In this document: piece by piece, positions 5,082 to 44,096 of the stretch
How the letters are laid out: each line of letters starts with the position of its first letter
How positions within the stretch are numbered: position 1 is the first letter of the stretch
Source: Cupriavidus sp. AU9028
GTDB taxonomy: Bacteria > Pseudomonadota > Gammaproteobacteria > Burkholderiales > Burkholderiaceae
DNA: 64,000 bases
Assembly (NCBI RefSeq): GCF_019795295.1
Contig: NZ_JAIMCG010000005.1
Coordinates: forward strand, 124,001 to 188,000
Direction: 5' to 3'
The notes under the pieces: model-generated
Told to the model about the DNA's origin: nothing
The model's input: only the letters and a program-made list of their open reading frames with translations
Databases searched by the model: none
Translations under genes and position numbers: made by a program

Positions 5082-5757
5082 CGGGATCGCTCCATTGCAG
5101 CGTGCCCCGGGCCCGACGCGCACGAAGCGTGGCGCCGTGCGTCGTCTGCTGGCGTGCCGGGGCGGCCCGGCTGCGCATGGTGCCGGCGTTGCCGGGAGGA
5201 GAGCGCCGTGCCGGCGGGCGGCACAGCGCGCAGGAATAAAAAGGTGGCTTTGCTTGCCACGTCAGGTTGGTGACCGATTCAGCGGGGTCTGGTGGCTTCC
5301 CCGGTCCCTGTCGTGGCTGGCTACTGCCAAACGCTCCGCGGTACGGAGCGGTCCCCACAAAAGACGGTGTGCGGAACGCCGGGAAGGCGTCACGCGAGAA
5401 ATCTGGTCGGCACGCTGTTGCACATCATCCCGTGCCACTGCGTCGGCGCCCCTCCAGCCGGAACCTTGTTCTCGGTGCTGTCGGTGCCGAAGCAGTGATG
5501 CCATAGTAAATGAGAATCGATCTCATTACAAGCGTCCATGTGCGCAATCTCACAATTTTTTACGTCTGCCACCGGCCTGCGGCAGGACGGCAGGTTTCGG
5601 AGGACCCGAACGTCCGGTTCGTGAAATCGAGATTGTCGGGGTGCTGCCCGGCTGGGACACTTGGTGCGCAAGGCCGGCGATGACGGCCGGCTACCAGGCG
5701 AGGCCGCGTTTCGAAAACGGTCCTCGCGACCTGCACACTTTCTGCAAGCGATTCTCT
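5082..5757. other. 676-bp intergenic region before the CoA-transferase operon
   Basis: No convincing gene was found on either strand. The stretch separates two divergent transcription units and contains a near-perfect Fur-type palindrome at 5509-5527, followed by A/T-richer DNA (about 5525-5570) that could hold promoters. Confidence 0.5.
5509..5527. promoter_or_regulatory. Fur-box-like palindrome
   Basis: AATGAGAATCGATCTCATT has perfect 7-bp arms and matches the common proteobacterial Fur pattern AATGAGAATGATTCTCATT at 16 of 19 positions. It lies 230 bp before the CoA-transferase start and 428 bp from the divergent small gene, so the regulated gene is uncertain. Confidence 0.55.
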
Positions 5758-11021: not shown

Positions 11022-11473
11022 GACGAGCTCCTTGAGGATTGCGCCGTGAGCCGGCGCGAAGGTGACGGTAAAGTTACGTGAGGGCCGTATTCCGCCCCTT
11101 GCAGAGGTATGACGCTCGCCTGCCAGGAAAATGCCCTTCGCCATCTCGCCCGACCGTGATCGATCCTGTGAGCACAGGTGACTCCGAAGCAGCGCCGGTT
11201 CCCGGCAGCAACGAATCCGCTGCGCCCCGCTGCGCGCTGTAAGGAACCGTAACACGCGCGCCTCACACGGCAATTGCGGTTCCAAATGAGAACAATTATC
11301 CTTTCGGTCTGCCGCGCCTACCGCCATCGAACACTCTCCAGGCGGGAAGCCGGTGTACGATGCCGCGGCCGTTCGTTTTCCAGCGAAGGCAGGGAAAGTG
11401 CAGTACGGGCAATCCCTTCCGCAACACAATACCGGCTCGTCGTCGGCCGGCCGCCGGCGGCGAGCAGAACACA
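11022..11473. other. Divergent intergenic region with Fur box
   Basis: 452 bp between the patatin gene and the PepSY gene. It contains the Fur box at 11284-11303 and no convincing gene. Short open frames here have poor starts and unlikely residue composition. Confidence 0.5.
11284..11303. promoter_or_regulatory. Fur box before the PepSY-DUF2271 operon
   Basis: AATGAGAACAATTATCCTT, preceded by one more A, matches the Fur pattern AATGAGAATGATTCTCATT at 15 of 19 positions. Its reverse complement contains GATAATTGTTCTCATT, a classic iron-box form. It lies 170 bp before the PepSY start, which suggests the whole operon is repressed when iron is plentiful. Confidence 0.7.
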
Positions 11474-12121
11474 ATGATCGATACACAACTGGGCACGGGT
11501 CAGCAGCGCCGGGCCTTCTGGCTCAAGCATCTGCATCAGTGGCACTGGATCAGTTCGGCGATCTGCCTGATCGGCATGCTGCTGTTCGCCATTACCGGCT
11601 TTACGCTGAACCATGCGGGCCAGATCGAAGGCAGCCCGCGCACCATTACCCGCTCGGCAGAGGCGCCGCCGGCGCTGGTGCAGGCGCTGCGCGAGCAGGC
11701 GCGAAGCGAGGCGGACGACGGCAAGGGTCCGGTGCCGGAGAACCTGGCGCAATGGCTGCGCGAGGCGCTTCGGATCGAGGTGCGCGGGCGCGAAGCGGAA
11801 TGGTCCGAGGACGAAATCTATGTCGCGCTGCCCCGTCCTGGCGGCGACGCCTGGGTCAGCATCGCGCTGGACAGCGGTGACGCGCAATATGAGCTGACCA
11901 CGCGCGGCTGGGTCTCCTACCTGAACGATCTGCACAAGGGCCGCAATACCGGCGCCGCGTGGAGCCTGTTCCTGGACGCATTCGCGTTCGCCTGCCTGGT
12001 GTTCTGCATCACCGGGCTGTTCTTGCTGAAAATGCATGCCGGCGCCCGCGTCGCCACCTGGCCGCTCGTCGGGCTCGGGCTGGTCGTGCCGCTGCTGCTG
12101 GCAATTCTGTTCATTCACTAA
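11474..12121 (+). CDS. PepSY-associated inner-membrane protein
   Basis: A 215-residue membrane protein with one hydrophobic helix near residues 20-45 (WISSAICLIGMLLFAITGF), a periplasmic region of about 110 residues rich in acidic residues, and two C-terminal helices (about 160-180 and 190-213). This is the compact PepSY-TM arrangement seen in proteins of ferric-siderophore reduction and other membrane electron transfer. Candidate haem-like or metal ligands are the His residues near the first helix (LKHLHQWHW). ATG 11474 was chosen because its N-terminal residues lead straight into that segment. It is first in a five-gene run behind a Fur box; the next gene follows after 11 bp. Confidence 0.82.
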   Translation: MIDTQLGTGQQRRAFWLKHLHQWHWISSAICLIGMLLFAITGFTLNHAGQIEGSPRTITRSAEAPPALVQALREQARSEADDGKGPVPENLAQWLREALRIEVRGREAEWSEDEIYVALPRPGGDAWVSIALDSGDAQYELTTRGWVSYLNDLHKGRNTGAAWSLFLDAFAFACLVFCITGLFLLKMHAGARVATWPLVGLGLVVPLLLAILFIH

Positions 12122-12132
12122 CGAGGTCGAAT

Positions 12133-12657
12133 ATGCGCCGTCTGCTTACCGTCACCCTGACCGGCATGGCCGCCGCGCCGTTCGCCGGCCCTGCCGTGGC
12201 GGCCGAGTTGAACGTCAAGGTGGAAATTCCGAAGCTCACCGTTGCCGAATATCACCGCCCCTATGTCGCCATGTGGGTCGAGCGTGCGGACCAGTCGCCT
12301 GCGACCACGCTGGCGGTGTGGTACGACGTCAAGCTCAAGGACGCGGAAGGCACCAAGTGGCTCAAGGACATGCGCCAGTGGTGGCGCAAGGCAGGGCGCG
12401 AGATGCAGATGCCGATGGATGGCGTCTCCGGCGCGACGCGTGCCCCCGGCGAGCATTCGGTGACCTTCACCGACGGCAAGGCGCCGCTGGGCAAGCTGCC
12501 CGCCGGTGATTATCAGCTGGTAGTCGAGGCGGCCCGCGAGGTCGGCGGCCGCGAACTGCTCAAGGTCCCGTTCAGCTGGCCGCCGCAGGGCACGAAGTCG
12601 GCGCAGGCGAAGGGCCAGCACGAGCTCGGCGCGGTGACGGTCAGCGTCAAGCCGTGA
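12133..12657 (+). CDS. DUF2271 periplasmic protein with flavinylation motif
   Basis: A 174-residue exported DUF2271 protein. The N-terminus has charged residues, a hydrophobic stretch and a likely AVA cleavage site near residues 21-23. DGVSGAT at 96-102 matches the D-x-x-S/T-G-A-T motif to which ApbE attaches FMN through the Thr, here Thr102 (codon 12436-12438). The apbE gene lies two genes downstream. The protein is therefore a good candidate for a covalently flavinylated periplasmic electron carrier. WWRKAG just before the motif is Trp-rich and may pack on the flavin. A GAGG ribosome site precedes the ATG. FMN attachment is inferred, not shown. Confidence 0.85.
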   Translation: MRRLLTVTLTGMAAAPFAGPAVAAELNVKVEIPKLTVAEYHRPYVAMWVERADQSPATTLAVWYDVKLKDAEGTKWLKDMRQWWRKAGREMQMPMDGVSGATRAPGEHSVTFTDGKAPLGKLPAGDYQLVVEAAREVGGRELLKVPFSWPPQGTKSAQAKGQHELGAVTVSVKP

Positions 12658-12744
12658 CGAGCGGATCGCCCGCCGCTGTCCGCAGATTCCATCCACGCAT
12701 CGCCGACCAGGCGCCGACCATCTTCCATTGAACAGGAGTTGTCC

Positions 12745-13569
12745 ATGAAATCCCCATCGCTTGGCGTCGCCGCCCGTCTGTCCGCGCTTGCCCTTGCCGC
12801 GCTGATGCCGCTCGCCGCCCACGCCCACCGTCAATGGCTGCTGCCGTCGGCGACCGTGCTGTCCGGCAGCGACCCCTGGGTGACCGTCGATGCCGCGGTG
12901 TCCAACGACCTGTTCTACTTCGAGCACGTCCCGCTGCGCCTGGACAACCTGAACGTGACCGGTCCGGACGGCGATGCGATCAAGGCCGAGAACCAGAGCA
13001 CGGGCCGGTATCGCAGCACCTTCGACGTGCACCTGTCCCAGCCGGGCACATACAAGCTGGCGGTGGTCAACAATGGGCTGTTCGCCAGCTGGAAGGAAAA
13101 CGGCAAGCCCAGGCGCTGGCGCGGCTCGCCGCAGGCCTTCGCCTCGGAGGTGCCAGCGAACGCGCAGGAACTGCAGGTGACGCAGGCCGATACCCGGCTG
13201 GAGACGTTCGTCACCGCCGGCAAGCCGACCGAGACGGTGCTGCGCACCACCGGCCGGGGCCTGGAACTGGCGCCCGAAACCCATCCGAACGACCTGTTCT
13301 CCGGTGAGCCGGCCAACTTCCGCCTGCTGCTGGACGGCAAGCCGGCGGCCAACGTGGAGATCGAGGTGGTGCCGGGCGGCAACCGCTATCGCGACCAGCT
13401 GGGCGAGATGAAGGTGAAGACCGACGCCAACGGCAAGTTCAGCATCAAGTGGCCCTCGCCCGGCATGTACTGGATCGAAGCGGAAGTCCGTGACGACAAG
13501 GTCAGCGTGCCGCAGGCCAAGTCGCGCCGTGCAGCCTACATGGCCACGTTCGAAGTCTTGCCGCAGTAA
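12745..13569 (+). CDS. DUF4198 periplasmic protein
   Basis: A 274-residue exported protein of the DUF4198 family, beta-rich and including proteins proposed to bind metals. The signal peptide covers about residues 1-27 ([13 protein letters not shown]). Cleavage after AHA would leave His28 as the mature N-terminus (HRQWLL), a common metal-binding arrangement. The C-terminal half ([22 protein letters not shown]) resembles an immunoglobulin-like fold. ATG 12745 is preferred over an in-frame TTG at 12739 because the AGGAG site at 12734-12738 abuts the TTG. It probably serves the same periplasmic redox or metal process as the DUF2271 protein upstream. Confidence 0.82.
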
Positions 13570-13583
13570 GGAGCGCTGGCTCG

Positions 13584-14678
13584 ATGCACTTGCAGTATGC
13601 ACAGCAACGCGGGCCGGCGCCTGCAGCCCTTGCCGCCGCATCGGCCAGGCGCCGCGTGCTGGTACCGCTGACTGCCGCCGCACCGGCGCGGCTGTCTGAG
13701 GCGGGCGTGCTGCTGCATGATCTGTCGGGCCACACGATGGGCACGACGTGGTCGGTACGGTGTCTGCTGTCGCCAGGTTTGCGGCCGGAGGCAATCGAGG
13801 CCGGCATCCAGGCCGTGCTGGACGAGGTCGTTGCGCAGATGAGCAACTGGCGCGACGACAGCGCCATCGGCCGCTATAACGGCGCTACGCCGGGCGACTG
13901 GATCGCCTTGCCGGCGGCGTGCCTGCAGGTGTTGCAGACCGCGCTGGCGGTGGCGCGCGACAGCGGCGGCGCCTATGACCCGACCGCGGCGGCGCTGGTC
14001 GATCTGTGGGGGTTCGGCCCTGCCGGCGCGGTTGCCGCTGCTCCGCAGGCCGCCGCAGTCGAACTGGCCCGCGGGCGATGCGGCTGGCGCAAGGTCGAGG
14101 TCGACAGCGAGGGCGGGCGGGCGTTACAGCCCGGTGGCCTGCAACTGGACTTGTGTGCGATCGCGAAGGGGCATGGCGTCGATGCCGTGTCGGCGTGGTT
14201 GCGCGCGAATGGCGTTGCGCACCATCTGGTCGAGGTGGGGGGCGAGCTGCGCGGCGAAGGACTCAAACCCGATGGCATGCCGTGGTGGGTCGAACTCGAG
14301 ACGCCACCGCTGGAGGCCGGACATGCCGTGTCACACGCGACCGTTTCGCTGCCGGGTCCGATCGCGCTGGCGGCGCACGGCATCGCCGTGGCGACTTCTG
14401 GCGACTATCGCCGCTATTTCCAGGATGGCGCACGGCGCCACTCCCATACCATCGATCCGCGCACCGGCTACCCGATCAGCCATGCGGTGGCGAGCGTGAC
14501 GGTCGTGCATCCGCAGTGCATGCTGGCCGACGCGCTTTCCACCGCGTTGACGGTCCTGGGACCGGAGGCGGGCATGCGCTTCGCCACCGAGCGCGCCATT
14601 GCCGCGCGGATGCTGCTGCGTACTCCGGACGGCTTCGTCGAACGGCTGTCGCCGGCCTTCGCCGCGATGCTGGCATGA
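13584..14678 (+). CDS. apbE: FAD:protein FMN transferase
   Basis: A 364-residue ApbE-family enzyme that moves FMN from FAD onto a Thr of a target protein, using Mg. Family motifs are present in order: TMGTTW (51-56), DLCAIAKG (189-196), VGGELR (218-223), ATSGDYRRYF (from about 270), HTIDPRTG (from 288) and the metal-binding ADALSTA (about 315-321). The nearest likely target is the DUF2271 protein two genes upstream. Oddly, residues 1-40 show no clear signal peptide or lipobox Cys, although most ApbE proteins work in the periplasm. Its stop overlaps the next start (ATGA), so the two are coupled. Confidence 0.92.
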   Translation: MHLQYAQQRGPAPAALAAASARRRVLVPLTAAAPARLSEAGVLLHDLSGHTMGTTWSVRCLLSPGLRPEAIEAGIQAVLDEVVAQMSNWRDDSAIGRYNGATPGDWIALPAACLQVLQTALAVARDSGGAYDPTAAALVDLWGFGPAGAVAAAPQAAAVELARGRCGWRKVEVDSEGGRALQPGGLQLDLCAIAKGHGVDAVSAWLRANGVAHHLVEVGGELRGEGLKPDGMPWWVELETPPLEAGHAVSHATVSLPGPIALAAHGIAVATSGDYRRYFQDGARRHSHTIDPRTGYPISHAVASVTVVHPQCMLADALSTALTVLGPEAGMRFATERAIAARMLLRTPDGFVERLSPAFAAMLA

Positions 14679-16312
14679 GCGGCCCCCGCATCTCCGTCGC
14701 CACCGCGCTGGCGGCGCTCGCCTTCGCTGGCGGTGTGGCGCTGGCTGTTGTCGTGCCGGAGCGCCTGGCCAGCGCGGGCGGCGTGACGCTCGCCTACGCG
14801 GGCTTCTGCGCCGGCATCGTCGATCTGCACCGCCGCAAGCGCCGCCGCGGTCCGTCGGCCATGCGCGCGGGGTCAGGCGACGATGCGTTGCTGGTCGCCT
14901 ATGCCAGCCAGACCGGTTTCGGCGAGCAGATCGCCGCCCGGACCGCCGATTCGCTGCAGCAGGCGGGCATTGCCGTCTCGCTGCAATCGTTCGCCGACCT
15001 GCAGCCCGCACACCTCGCCACTTGCCGGCGGGCGCTTTTCATCGTCAGTACCACCGGGGAAGGCGATGCCCCCGATAGCGCATCCGGGTTTGGGCGCAAG
15101 CTCGCGGCAGCGGCAAGGCTGGCGCAGGACCGCGAGCGCGGCCTGCCGGCGCTGCGCTATGGCGTGCTGGCATTGGGCGACAGCAGCTACGCCAACTATT
15201 GCGCGTTCGGCCATGCCGTCTCCGGCTGGCTGCAGCGCGAGCACGCGCAGCCGCTGTTCGATCTGGTCGAAGTCGACAACGGCGACCCCGGGGCGTTGCG
15301 CCATTGGCAGAATCATCTGTCGACACTGGCGGGGGGCACGCAGATCGCCGACTGGGAACGGCCTCGCTATGAACGCTGGCGGCTGGAATCGCGGCAGCTG
15401 GCAAATGCCGGCAGCGCCGGCGCCCCCGCTTTCCATTTGCGGCTGGTGCCGGCAGACAGCCGGACCGCGGACGATGGCGCGCTGTCATGGAGCGCAGGCG
15501 ATATCGCCGAGATCGGTCCGCGGCTCCCACCGCATGCGGTGCAGGCGCTGCTGCACGCGCTCGCGCTGGACGGCGACACGGCGGTGCAATGCGATGGCGC
15601 GCCGAGCACGCTGCGCGAGGCGCTGGCCACCCGGTTGCCGTTCACCGCGGCGCAGGCGCAGGCGATGCGAGGCGTCGCGCCCCAGGCGCTGGTCGATGCG
15701 CTGGCACCGCTGCCGCATCGCGAGTATTCGATTGCCTCGCTGCCGGCCGACGGCGCGATCGAACTGCTGGTGCGCCAGACCCGGCACGCCGATGGCGGGC
15801 TGGGAGTCGGCTCGGGCTGGCTGACCGAGTATGCGCAGCCGGGGCAGGACATTGCGCTGCGCGTGCGGGTCAATCGCGGCTTTCATCCGCCCGGCGACGA
15901 GCGCCCATTGATCCTTATCGGCAACGGCACGGGCATTGCCGGCCTGCGTGCCTTGCTCAAGGCGCGCGCGCAGGCGGGCCATCGGCGCAACTGGCTGCTG
16001 TTCGGCGAGCGCAGCGCCGCGACCGACGCGTTCTACGACGAGGAGTTGCGCCACTGGCAGGCGCAGGGCGTGCTAAGCCGGATCGACCGCACCTGGTCCC
16101 GCGATGGCGGCCAGTTGCGCTATGTGCAGGACGCGGTCAGGCAGGCGGGGGACACCGTACGCGAGTGGATCGCGGCGGGCGCCACCATCCAGGTCTGCGG
16201 CAGCCTGCAAGGCATGGCCAGCGGCGTCCATGAAGCGCTGGAAGCCGTGCTCGGCAGCGACGGGCTGGCCGCCCTCGCCGAGAGCGGCCGTTACCGTCGA
16301 GACGTCTATTGA
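14675..16312 (+). CDS. Membrane-anchored flavodoxin/NADPH-flavin reductase (CPR/CysJ-like)
   Basis: A 545-residue protein with two N-terminal hydrophobic segments (about 8-27 and 33-51) followed by a basic stretch HRRKRRRG, so the rest should be cytosolic. The flavodoxin part has VAYASQTGFGEQIA (FMN phosphate loop), STTGEGDAPD and LALGDSSY. The reductase part has HREYSIAS (FAD), GVGSGWLTEY and LILIGNGTGIAGLRA plus FGERSAATD (NADPH). It should take electrons from NADPH through FAD and FMN and pass them into the membrane. With the PepSY protein and the flavinylated DUF2271 carrier, this gives a plausible route to the periplasm. It resembles sulfite-reductase flavoprotein but stands outside any cys operon. 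Confidence 0.87.
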   Translation: MSGPRISVATALAALAFAGGVALAVVVPERLASAGGVTLAYAGFCAGIVDLHRRKRRRGPSAMRAGSGDDALLVAYASQTGFGEQIAARTADSLQQAGIAVSLQSFADLQPAHLATCRRALFIVSTTGEGDAPDSASGFGRKLAAAARLAQDRERGLPALRYGVLALGDSSYANYCAFGHAVSGWLQREHAQPLFDLVEVDNGDPGALRHWQNHLSTLAGGTQIADWERPRYERWRLESRQLANAGSAGAPAFHLRLVPADSRTADDGALSWSAGDIAEIGPRLPPHAVQALLHALALDGDTAVQCDGAPSTLREALATRLPFTAAQAQAMRGVAPQALVDALAPLPHREYSIASLPADGAIELLVRQTRHADGGLGVGSGWLTEYAQPGQDIALRVRVNRGFHPPGDERPLILIGNGTGIAGLRALLKARAQAGHRRNWLLFGERSAATDAFYDEELRHWQAQGVLSRIDRTWSRDGGQLRYVQDAVRQAGDTVREWIAAGATIQVCGSLQGMASGVHEALEAVLGSDGLAALAESGRYRRDVY

Positions 16313-41846: not shown

Positions 41847-43748
<1,902 letters not shown>

Positions 43749-43760
43749 CGAAAAACGGCC

Positions 43761-44015
43761 TCAGGCGGATCGGGTGGCGTCCGCGGGTTGCACGGTCACG
43801 CGCGCGGCCTCGGTCCGCCGCAGCGCGAAGCGCGTCGCACCGACCTGGGCGACCAGGGGATCCTTGCCAAACGGACCGGCGGTAATGATCTGCACGGCCT
43901 CGCCGGGCACGAAGCCCAGCTCGCGCAGCCGGCGAGCCACGGGATCGTTCGGCGTGCTATCGTCAACCGACTGCACGATCGCGGCGGTACGCCGCGGCAA
44001 ATCAGACAACCGCAT
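43761..44015 (-). CDS. feoA: FeoA SH3-like protein
   Basis: An 84-residue FeoA, an SH3-like partner needed for FeoB function. It opens MRLSDLPRRTAAIVQSVDD and holds the family block RRLRELGFVPGEAVQIITAGPFGKDPLVAQVGATRFALR. The ATG at 44013-44015 was chosen because the product then has normal length; the frame continues upstream through the Fur box, which makes an earlier start unlikely. It is first in the feoA-feoB-small gene operon. Confidence 0.93.
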   Translation of the reverse strand: MRLSDLPRRTAAIVQSVDDSTPNDPVARRLRELGFVPGEAVQIITAGPFGKDPLVAQVGATRFALRRTEAARVTVQPADATRSA

Positions 44016-44077
44016 AGGGAAATCCTGGAATCCTTGGTCCTGCCTGGTTTTGTCGGAATCCTGCGCGCTATGACGCA

Positions 44078-44096
44078 GATGAGAATCGTTTGCATT
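44078..44096. promoter_or_regulatory. Fur box before feoA
   Basis: GATGAGAATCGTTTGCATT matches the Fur pattern AATGAGAATGATTCTCATT at about 14 of 19 positions and lies 63 bp before the feoA start, in the gap divergent with the thiol dioxygenase. Repression by Fe-Fur is the expected control. Confidence 0.65.

Follow-up and report, generated by a model that had tools for sequence, protein, structure and literature searches.

The window analysed here is a stretch of 64,000 nucleotides from Cupriavidus sp. AU9028 (contig NZ_JAIMCG010000005.1, positions 124,001 to 188,000), and it contains an operon of five co-directional genes (11474-16312, + strand) that encode, in order, a PepSY_TM_like_2 membrane protein, a DUF2271 protein, a DUF4198 protein, an ApbE flavin transferase and a flavodoxin/nicotinamide adenine dinucleotide (phosphate) (NAD(P)H) reductase, preceded by a predicted Fur-type operator (Table 1). 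The intergenic gaps are, in order, 11, 87, 14 and −4 nucleotides. A preliminary description of this DNA had listed five co-directional genes with short or overlapping gaps; the domain matches and coordinates bear out the five genes and their direction, but the statement about the gaps is only partly true, because one of them is 87 nucleotides. The host genome has a size of 4.68 Mb in 42 contigs and is 94.56% complete, and the nearest named relatives of the window DUF2271 protein are Cupriavidus proteins (85% identity).

Table 1. Features of the operon and of the iron-related surroundings in the window.
Feature	Position	Strand	Evidence and remarks
Fur-type operator (predicted)	11284..11303	+	core AATGAGAACAATTATC at 11285-11300; rare in shuffles; similar box in relatives
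PepSY_TM_like_2 membrane protein, 215 aa	11474..12121	+	PF16357, E = 1.1e-84
DUF2271 protein, 174 aa, signal-peptide-like N-terminus	12133..12657	+	PF10029, E = 2.2e-53
DUF4198 protein, 274 aa, signal-peptide-like N-terminus	12745..13569	+	PF10670, E = 2.9e-65
ApbE FAD:protein FMN transferase, 364 aa, RVLVP motif N-terminal	13584..14678	+	PF02424, E = 3.8e-80
Flavodoxin/NAD(P)H reductase, 545 aa, membrane-anchored	14675..16312	+	PF00258, E = 1.3e-22; PF00175, E = 2e-8
feoA-feoB ferrous iron transporter	41847..44015	-	FeoA PF04023, FeoB_N PF02421; feoA start 44015 chosen from sequence
Fur-like box	44081..44096	-	2 mismatches to pattern; ~65 nt upstream of likely feoA start

The DUF2271 protein carries a predicted flavinylation motif, DGVSGAT, at residues 96-102, in which Thr102 is the predicted site of attachment of flavin mononucleotide (FMN). 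The position given for this motif in the preliminary description was confirmed, and in an alignment of relatives Asp96 and Thr102 were each found in 110 of 110 rows, with SGAT or TGAT in 92 of the 110. The N-terminus is of the exported type, being signal-peptide-like by a crude hydropathy rule (not SignalP), with a mature start predicted by eye near Glu25. It has been reported that a DUF2271 protein of A. ursilacus (Amantichitinum) is flavinylated by its cognate ApbE and that replacement of the Thr with Ala abolishes the modification (PMC8238504). At E ≤ 0.001, the host genome has a single DUF2271, and the operon ApbE is the only ApbE found in it. A comparison of DUF2271 with Protein Data Bank (PDB) sequences yielded no meaningful relatives. 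Three of the relatives (L028, L030 and L031) are ApbE-DUF2271 fusion proteins in which the flavinylation motif is degenerate (TKPT/TRPT) and the ApbE pattern HxxDPxTG has no match.

Three hydrophobic segments (residues 26-44, 167-185 and 196-214) were identified in the PepSY protein, the C-terminal part of which is also matched by PF03929 (PepSY_TM; E = 2.4e-10). In ungapped alignment rows, His24 was present in 108 of 108, His154 in 109 of 109 and His215 in 103 of 109. The topology predicted from the sequence would place two of the histidines, His24 and His188, at the cytoplasmic edge of the membrane and the other three, His47, His154 and His215, at the periplasmic edge. In FoxB, a relative of the PepSY protein, conserved histidines hold hemes (PMC11334425).

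The last gene product has hydrophobic segments at residues 8-26 and 31-49, and its C-terminal half is CysJ-like. It had been described as a membrane-anchored reductase using NADPH, flavin adenine dinucleotide (FAD) and FMN, and the membrane anchor and the PF00258 and PF00175 matches agree with this; the FAD-binding domain PF00667 stayed below its cut-off (E 0.059), and TIGR01931 reached 228.8 bits, under the family cut-off of 668.15.

The evidence that the operon is preceded by a Fur operator was evaluated in several ways. The core sequence AATGAGAACAATTATC has 0 mismatches to a Fur-like pattern that was composed post hoc from the site itself, and with up to 2 mismatches allowed this pattern has 3 matches in the window, compared to 0.07 expected. 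The operator scored 13/19 against the Escherichia coli Fur consensus; when the intergenic DNA was shuffled 2000 times with a first-order Markov model, 8 shuffles reached this score. The window contains four such 13/19 sites in all, counting the operator, and therefore the consensus score alone is not decisive. The main argument is conservation among relatives, on which basis this is a predicted Fur site: in the 300 bp that precede the PepSY gene, a box scoring at least 12 was found for 76 of 106 relatives, in comparison to 9 of 311 control stretches taken from inside the operons. The window was excluded from this count, and loci L004 and L022 were dropped, from this count only, as duplicates of L058 and L076. 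Across loci L032-L073, an upstream Fur-like box was found in 40 of 42. Because the gene upstream of the operon differs among relatives (patatin-like in the window, by reading of the sequence, and a chemotaxis receptor gene in L032), the box seems to travel with the operon. The Fur box noticed earlier is thus upheld by both the pattern match and the relatives. A consensus scan for a sigma-70-like promoter of the operon found none.

The gene set is conserved as well. The relatives were gathered by means of DUF2271, and the 80 named loci used were the best 80 of the 475 found, so that the sample is biased to close relatives; where two loci had identical DUF2271 ends, as in four pairs (L029/L030, L059/L060, L065/L066 and L087/L089), both were retained in all counts. 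Homologs of all five genes, in the same order and on the same strand, were found in 58 of the 80 named loci, and the co-occurrence of DUF2271, DUF4198 and PepSY with apbE that the preliminary description had proposed as a check was thereby observed. The first four homologs were present in 17 of the 80, the order DUF2271-DUF4198-PepSY-ApbE-reductase in 2, and three further sets in 1 each. In the Phenylobacterium relative L094, a gene for a TonB receptor extends into the beginning of the PepSY gene, and a search of this locus for a homolog of the fifth gene found none. Of 300 genomes sampled from the order of the host, 38 have DUF2271 (36 above the family cut-off), and therefore the system appears to be patchy.

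The predicted mature N-terminus of the DUF4198 protein is His28, with the cleavage site placed by eye between AHA and HRQW. In 103 of 106 ungapped rows, the residue that follows the AxA-type cleavage site is His, and two other histidines, His61 (100 of 106) and His180 (105 of 106), are similarly maintained; an N-terminal His has been reported for 79% of the DUF4198 family (PMC12537917). In three Paraburkholderia/Burkholderia loci (L068, L074 and L075), Asp replaces the His after the AHA site, which is a natural variant. The only chains in the PDB matched by the DUF4198 profile are named phosphoribosylglycinamide formyltransferase (9mhi to 9mho, E ~3e-7 to 4e-7); these comprise two sequences that differ at one His/Ala position, and they may represent a mislabelled DUF4198-like protein.

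Operons of this kind have been reported before. Méheust et al. 2021 (PMC8238504) defined a PepSY-like flavinylation system as a PF03929 or PF16357 protein encoded within 5 genes of an ApbE, FMN_bind, DUF3570 or DUF2271 gene, and in the window the PF16357 gene (283.8 bits) adjoins PF10029 and PF02424 genes. Their survey counted 3220 such clusters in 3040 genomes, with DUF2271 in 2833 and DUF4198 in 1500, and these share with the window the combination of a PF16357/PF03929 membrane protein with ApbE, DUF2271 and DUF4198; iron reduction was proposed as the function, and Fur repression was cited. In Caulobacter crescentus, the genes CC3059-63 are bound by Fur and repressed by iron, with lacZ derepression shown (PMC3751524), and insertions in CCNA_03155-03159, which are the same genes (CC3059-3063), lower fitness in ethylenediaminetetraacetic acid (EDTA) (PMC12004947). 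The Caulobacter operon is listed as a transporter, DUF2271, DUF4198, ApbE and a sulfite reductase flavoprotein, in the same order as in the window, and its "transporter" is called a PepSY-family protein in PMC12004947; it belongs to another genus, and the likeness is by family listing and not by sequence. Iron-responsive pairs of DUF4198 and DUF2271 genes have been reported in Alteromonas (PMC7190382).

The siderophore reductases FoxB and HiuB share with the window PepSY protein a PepSY_TM family relation and conserved histidines at the membrane edge (PMC11334425, PMC12424826), whereas the window protein differs in that it is 215 residues long, has three hydrophobic segments and is not adjoined by a TonB receptor. 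VciB of Vibrio cholerae, likened here by description and not by sequence, is a PepSY-like protein that has been reported to act as an extracytosolic iron reductase (as cited in PMC8238504). Because the published cluster model and the Caulobacter Fur and EDTA data are close, the system counts as already described, and the window holds the copy of a known iron-reduction operon in another genus.

We consider it very probable that the operon encodes an electron-transfer system of the PepSY type that is repressed by Fur, works through a flavinylated protein and reduces ferric iron in the periplasm. The genes, the conserved residues and the conserved Fur-like box are present in the window and its relatives; Fur binding, iron repression and fitness in EDTA are taken over by analogy from Caulobacter, and DUF2271 flavinylation from Amantichitinum. 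When iron is scarce, Fur would leave its box and the five genes would be made. The membrane-anchored reductase would then oxidise NAD(P)H, move the electrons by way of FAD and FMN, and deliver them to the heme sites of the three-helix PepSY protein, for which we infer His24/His188 and His47/His154/His215 as ligands. From these hemes the electrons would pass to FMN attached covalently to Thr102 in the exported DUF2271 protein, and finally to ferric chelates. The DUF4198 protein, with its N-terminal His, probably binds metal and may act as a metal carrier, and the resulting Fe(II) would enter by way of FeoB. The preliminary description had proposed an iron-controlled route from the NADPH reductase through PepSY and flavinylated DUF2271 to ferric chelates; this reading is supported, and it is close to the cluster model published in PMC8238504.

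Several observations weigh against this interpretation. His188 is absent in 6 of 108 ungapped rows (present in 102) and His47 in 10 of 108 (present in 98). A comparison of the PepSY protein with PDB sequences gave no hit at E ≤ 1, to a PepSY reductase or otherwise, although the presence of a FoxB entry among those sequences is unconfirmed, and a further PDB search gave only a chance-level match to RnfG (E 0.19). No TonB receptor adjoins the operon, and of the 12 Plug matches in the genome, the nearest on the same contig (the only one there) is ~120 kb away. A homolog of the fifth gene was not matched in 18 of the 80 named loci, of which at least 3 (L035, L044 and L052) end too early for the gene to be called absent, and therefore the reductase seems to be replaceable; in some clusters (e.g., L018, L020 and L106), ApbE is not beside DUF2271. 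A crystallised DUF4198 protein bound Ni2+ by means of its N-terminal His, and a search of the main text of that paper for the word "iron" found nothing (PMC12537917); this Ni-bound DUF4198 was not matched in our comparison of the window DUF4198 with PDB sequences. Finally, the operon ApbE is without a recognisable signal peptide or lipobox, whereas the DUF2271 and DUF4198 proteins have signal-peptide-like N-termini; the preliminary description did not note this. Because of this difference, FMN attachment to the exported DUF2271 protein is not straightforward.

The last point could mean that DUF2271 is not the substrate in vivo and that the signal-less ApbE modifies a cytoplasmic protein, as does the cytoplasmic ApbE of Klebsiella, which acts on a soluble fumarate reductase; most ApbEs seem to be secreted (PMC12052999). 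We regard this as unlikely, given that no FMN_bind protein, which might have been an alternative substrate, was found elsewhere in the genome at E ≤ 0.001, that the DUF2271 motif retains its invariant Asp and Thr, and that co-expression has proven a DUF2271 protein to be modified by ApbE (PMC8238504). The Ni2+ site of the crystallised DUF4198 protein and the retention of its N-terminal His in the relatives would also fit a system that handles another metal, nickel or copper, with DUF4198 as a nickel carrier and the PepSY protein as a copper-linked reductase, and a PepSY_TM protein of Bordetella has been reported to support heme-copper oxidoreductase function (PMC13038864); the conserved Fur-like box and the iron/Fur regulation and EDTA relevance of the Caulobacter operon of the same families (PMC3751524, PMC12004947) make this improbable. 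It is equally improbable that iron controls only expression and that the electrons serve another periplasmic acceptor (in oxidised-protein repair, or a dehydrogenase or oxidase), for although no conserved gene of the five defines the acceptor and flavinylated systems serve diverse redox functions (PMC8238504), the Caulobacter operon is under Fur control and matters for fitness in EDTA, and TonB receptors or VIT1 are associated with other PepSY-like clusters (PMC8238504), as is the TonB receptor gene in L094.

To return to a periplasmic, DUF2271-based iron reduction system, the distribution of signal-like segments bears on where the flavin would be attached. Signal peptides were called by hydropathy rules and not by SignalP, and of 103 ApbE rows, 99, including the window, could be scored at the N-terminus. 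Under the strict rule, a signal-like segment was found in 1 of 99 operon ApbEs (L019; the window was negative), in comparison to 92 of 104 scorable DUF2271 rows and 93 of 97 scorable DUF4198 rows. Looser rules gave 2 to 15 of the 99, and the earliest rule (a 9-residue window) gave 41; the rule was tightened because these 41 resulted largely from a short RVLIPVALSAPPP-like stretch, at which place other lineages have charged residues. An RVLIP-like motif is near the N-terminus in 87 of the 99. Among ApbEs encoded outside such operons, six of the seven fetched were signal-like, and in the seventh (L138) a lipobox can be made out by eye; L135, a partial match, was left unscored, and five further outside matches were left out.

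A search for ApbE in 25 of the 38 DUF2271-positive genomes found exactly one match in 16, and in 14 of these 16 it was in the operon. Thirteen of these 14 single operon-borne ApbEs are without a signal-like segment, the exception being G207 (L113). Two findings go against a cytoplasmic ApbE: the genomes G205 and G278 have their single ApbE elsewhere, with a signal-like segment (L134 and L132, respectively), and the DUF2271 Thr is still present; and the fusion proteins L028, L030 and L031 begin with a signal-like segment, as judged by eye. Therefore, DUF2271 systems overall may have an exported ApbE; in the lineage of the window, the predicted enzyme looks cytoplasmic. A missed upstream start of ApbE was rejected for the window, where the frame back to the stop is not hydrophobic. 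Export by the twin-arginine translocation (Tat) route was likewise rejected as a general answer, because many DUF2271 precursors are without the twin arginine (RR), which was found in the n-region of only 53 of 104 precursors with a crude choice of starts and in ~58 of 104 once five mis-picked starts were corrected.

We tentatively suggest, at somewhat less than even confidence, that in this operon family FMN is put on DUF2271 in the cytoplasm by the signal-less ApbE, with export of the flavin-carrying precursor to follow; otherwise, ApbE would exit the cytoplasm by an unrecognised route. The ApbE construct tested by Méheust et al. 2021 was truncated to remove its signal peptide, whereas the window ApbE has no recognisable one to begin with. 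In the parts of the literature on ApbE, DUF2271 and flavinylation available to us, we found no mention of an exported DUF2271 served by a signal-less ApbE, and the text of the ApbE review PMC12052999 does not contain DUF2271.

The feoAB genes (Table 1) are ~25 kb from the operon and outside it, and their products are the likely uptake step for Fe(II). Together with the Fur-like box (41847-44096, - strand), they are another candidate for an iron-regulated unit within the window. In the genome as a whole, PepSY_TM had nine matches; outside the window these include six full-length loci and one partial. Four of the six full-length loci have a TonB Plug match no more than 4 kb away (contigs C10, C15, C16 and C22), and the window copy does not. 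A second Fur-like palindrome, AATGAGAATCGATCTCATT, at 5509-5527 (within 5506-5530), sits upstream of the likely start of a coenzyme A-transferase III gene (domain from ~5767), which is not an obvious iron gene.

What the window adds to a system already described is a testable point, namely that the sole flavin transferase of the operon seems to be cytoplasmic and its target exported. The N-terminal-His DUF4198 protein and the arrangement of histidines in the three-helix PepSY protein give handles on iron reduction and hand-over. If attachment takes place before export, no supply of FAD to the periplasm would be needed, and a polypeptide with FMN attached would have to go through the Sec channel. 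Settling the site of flavinylation would show whether Sec passes a flavinylated protein or ApbE has an unknown exit.

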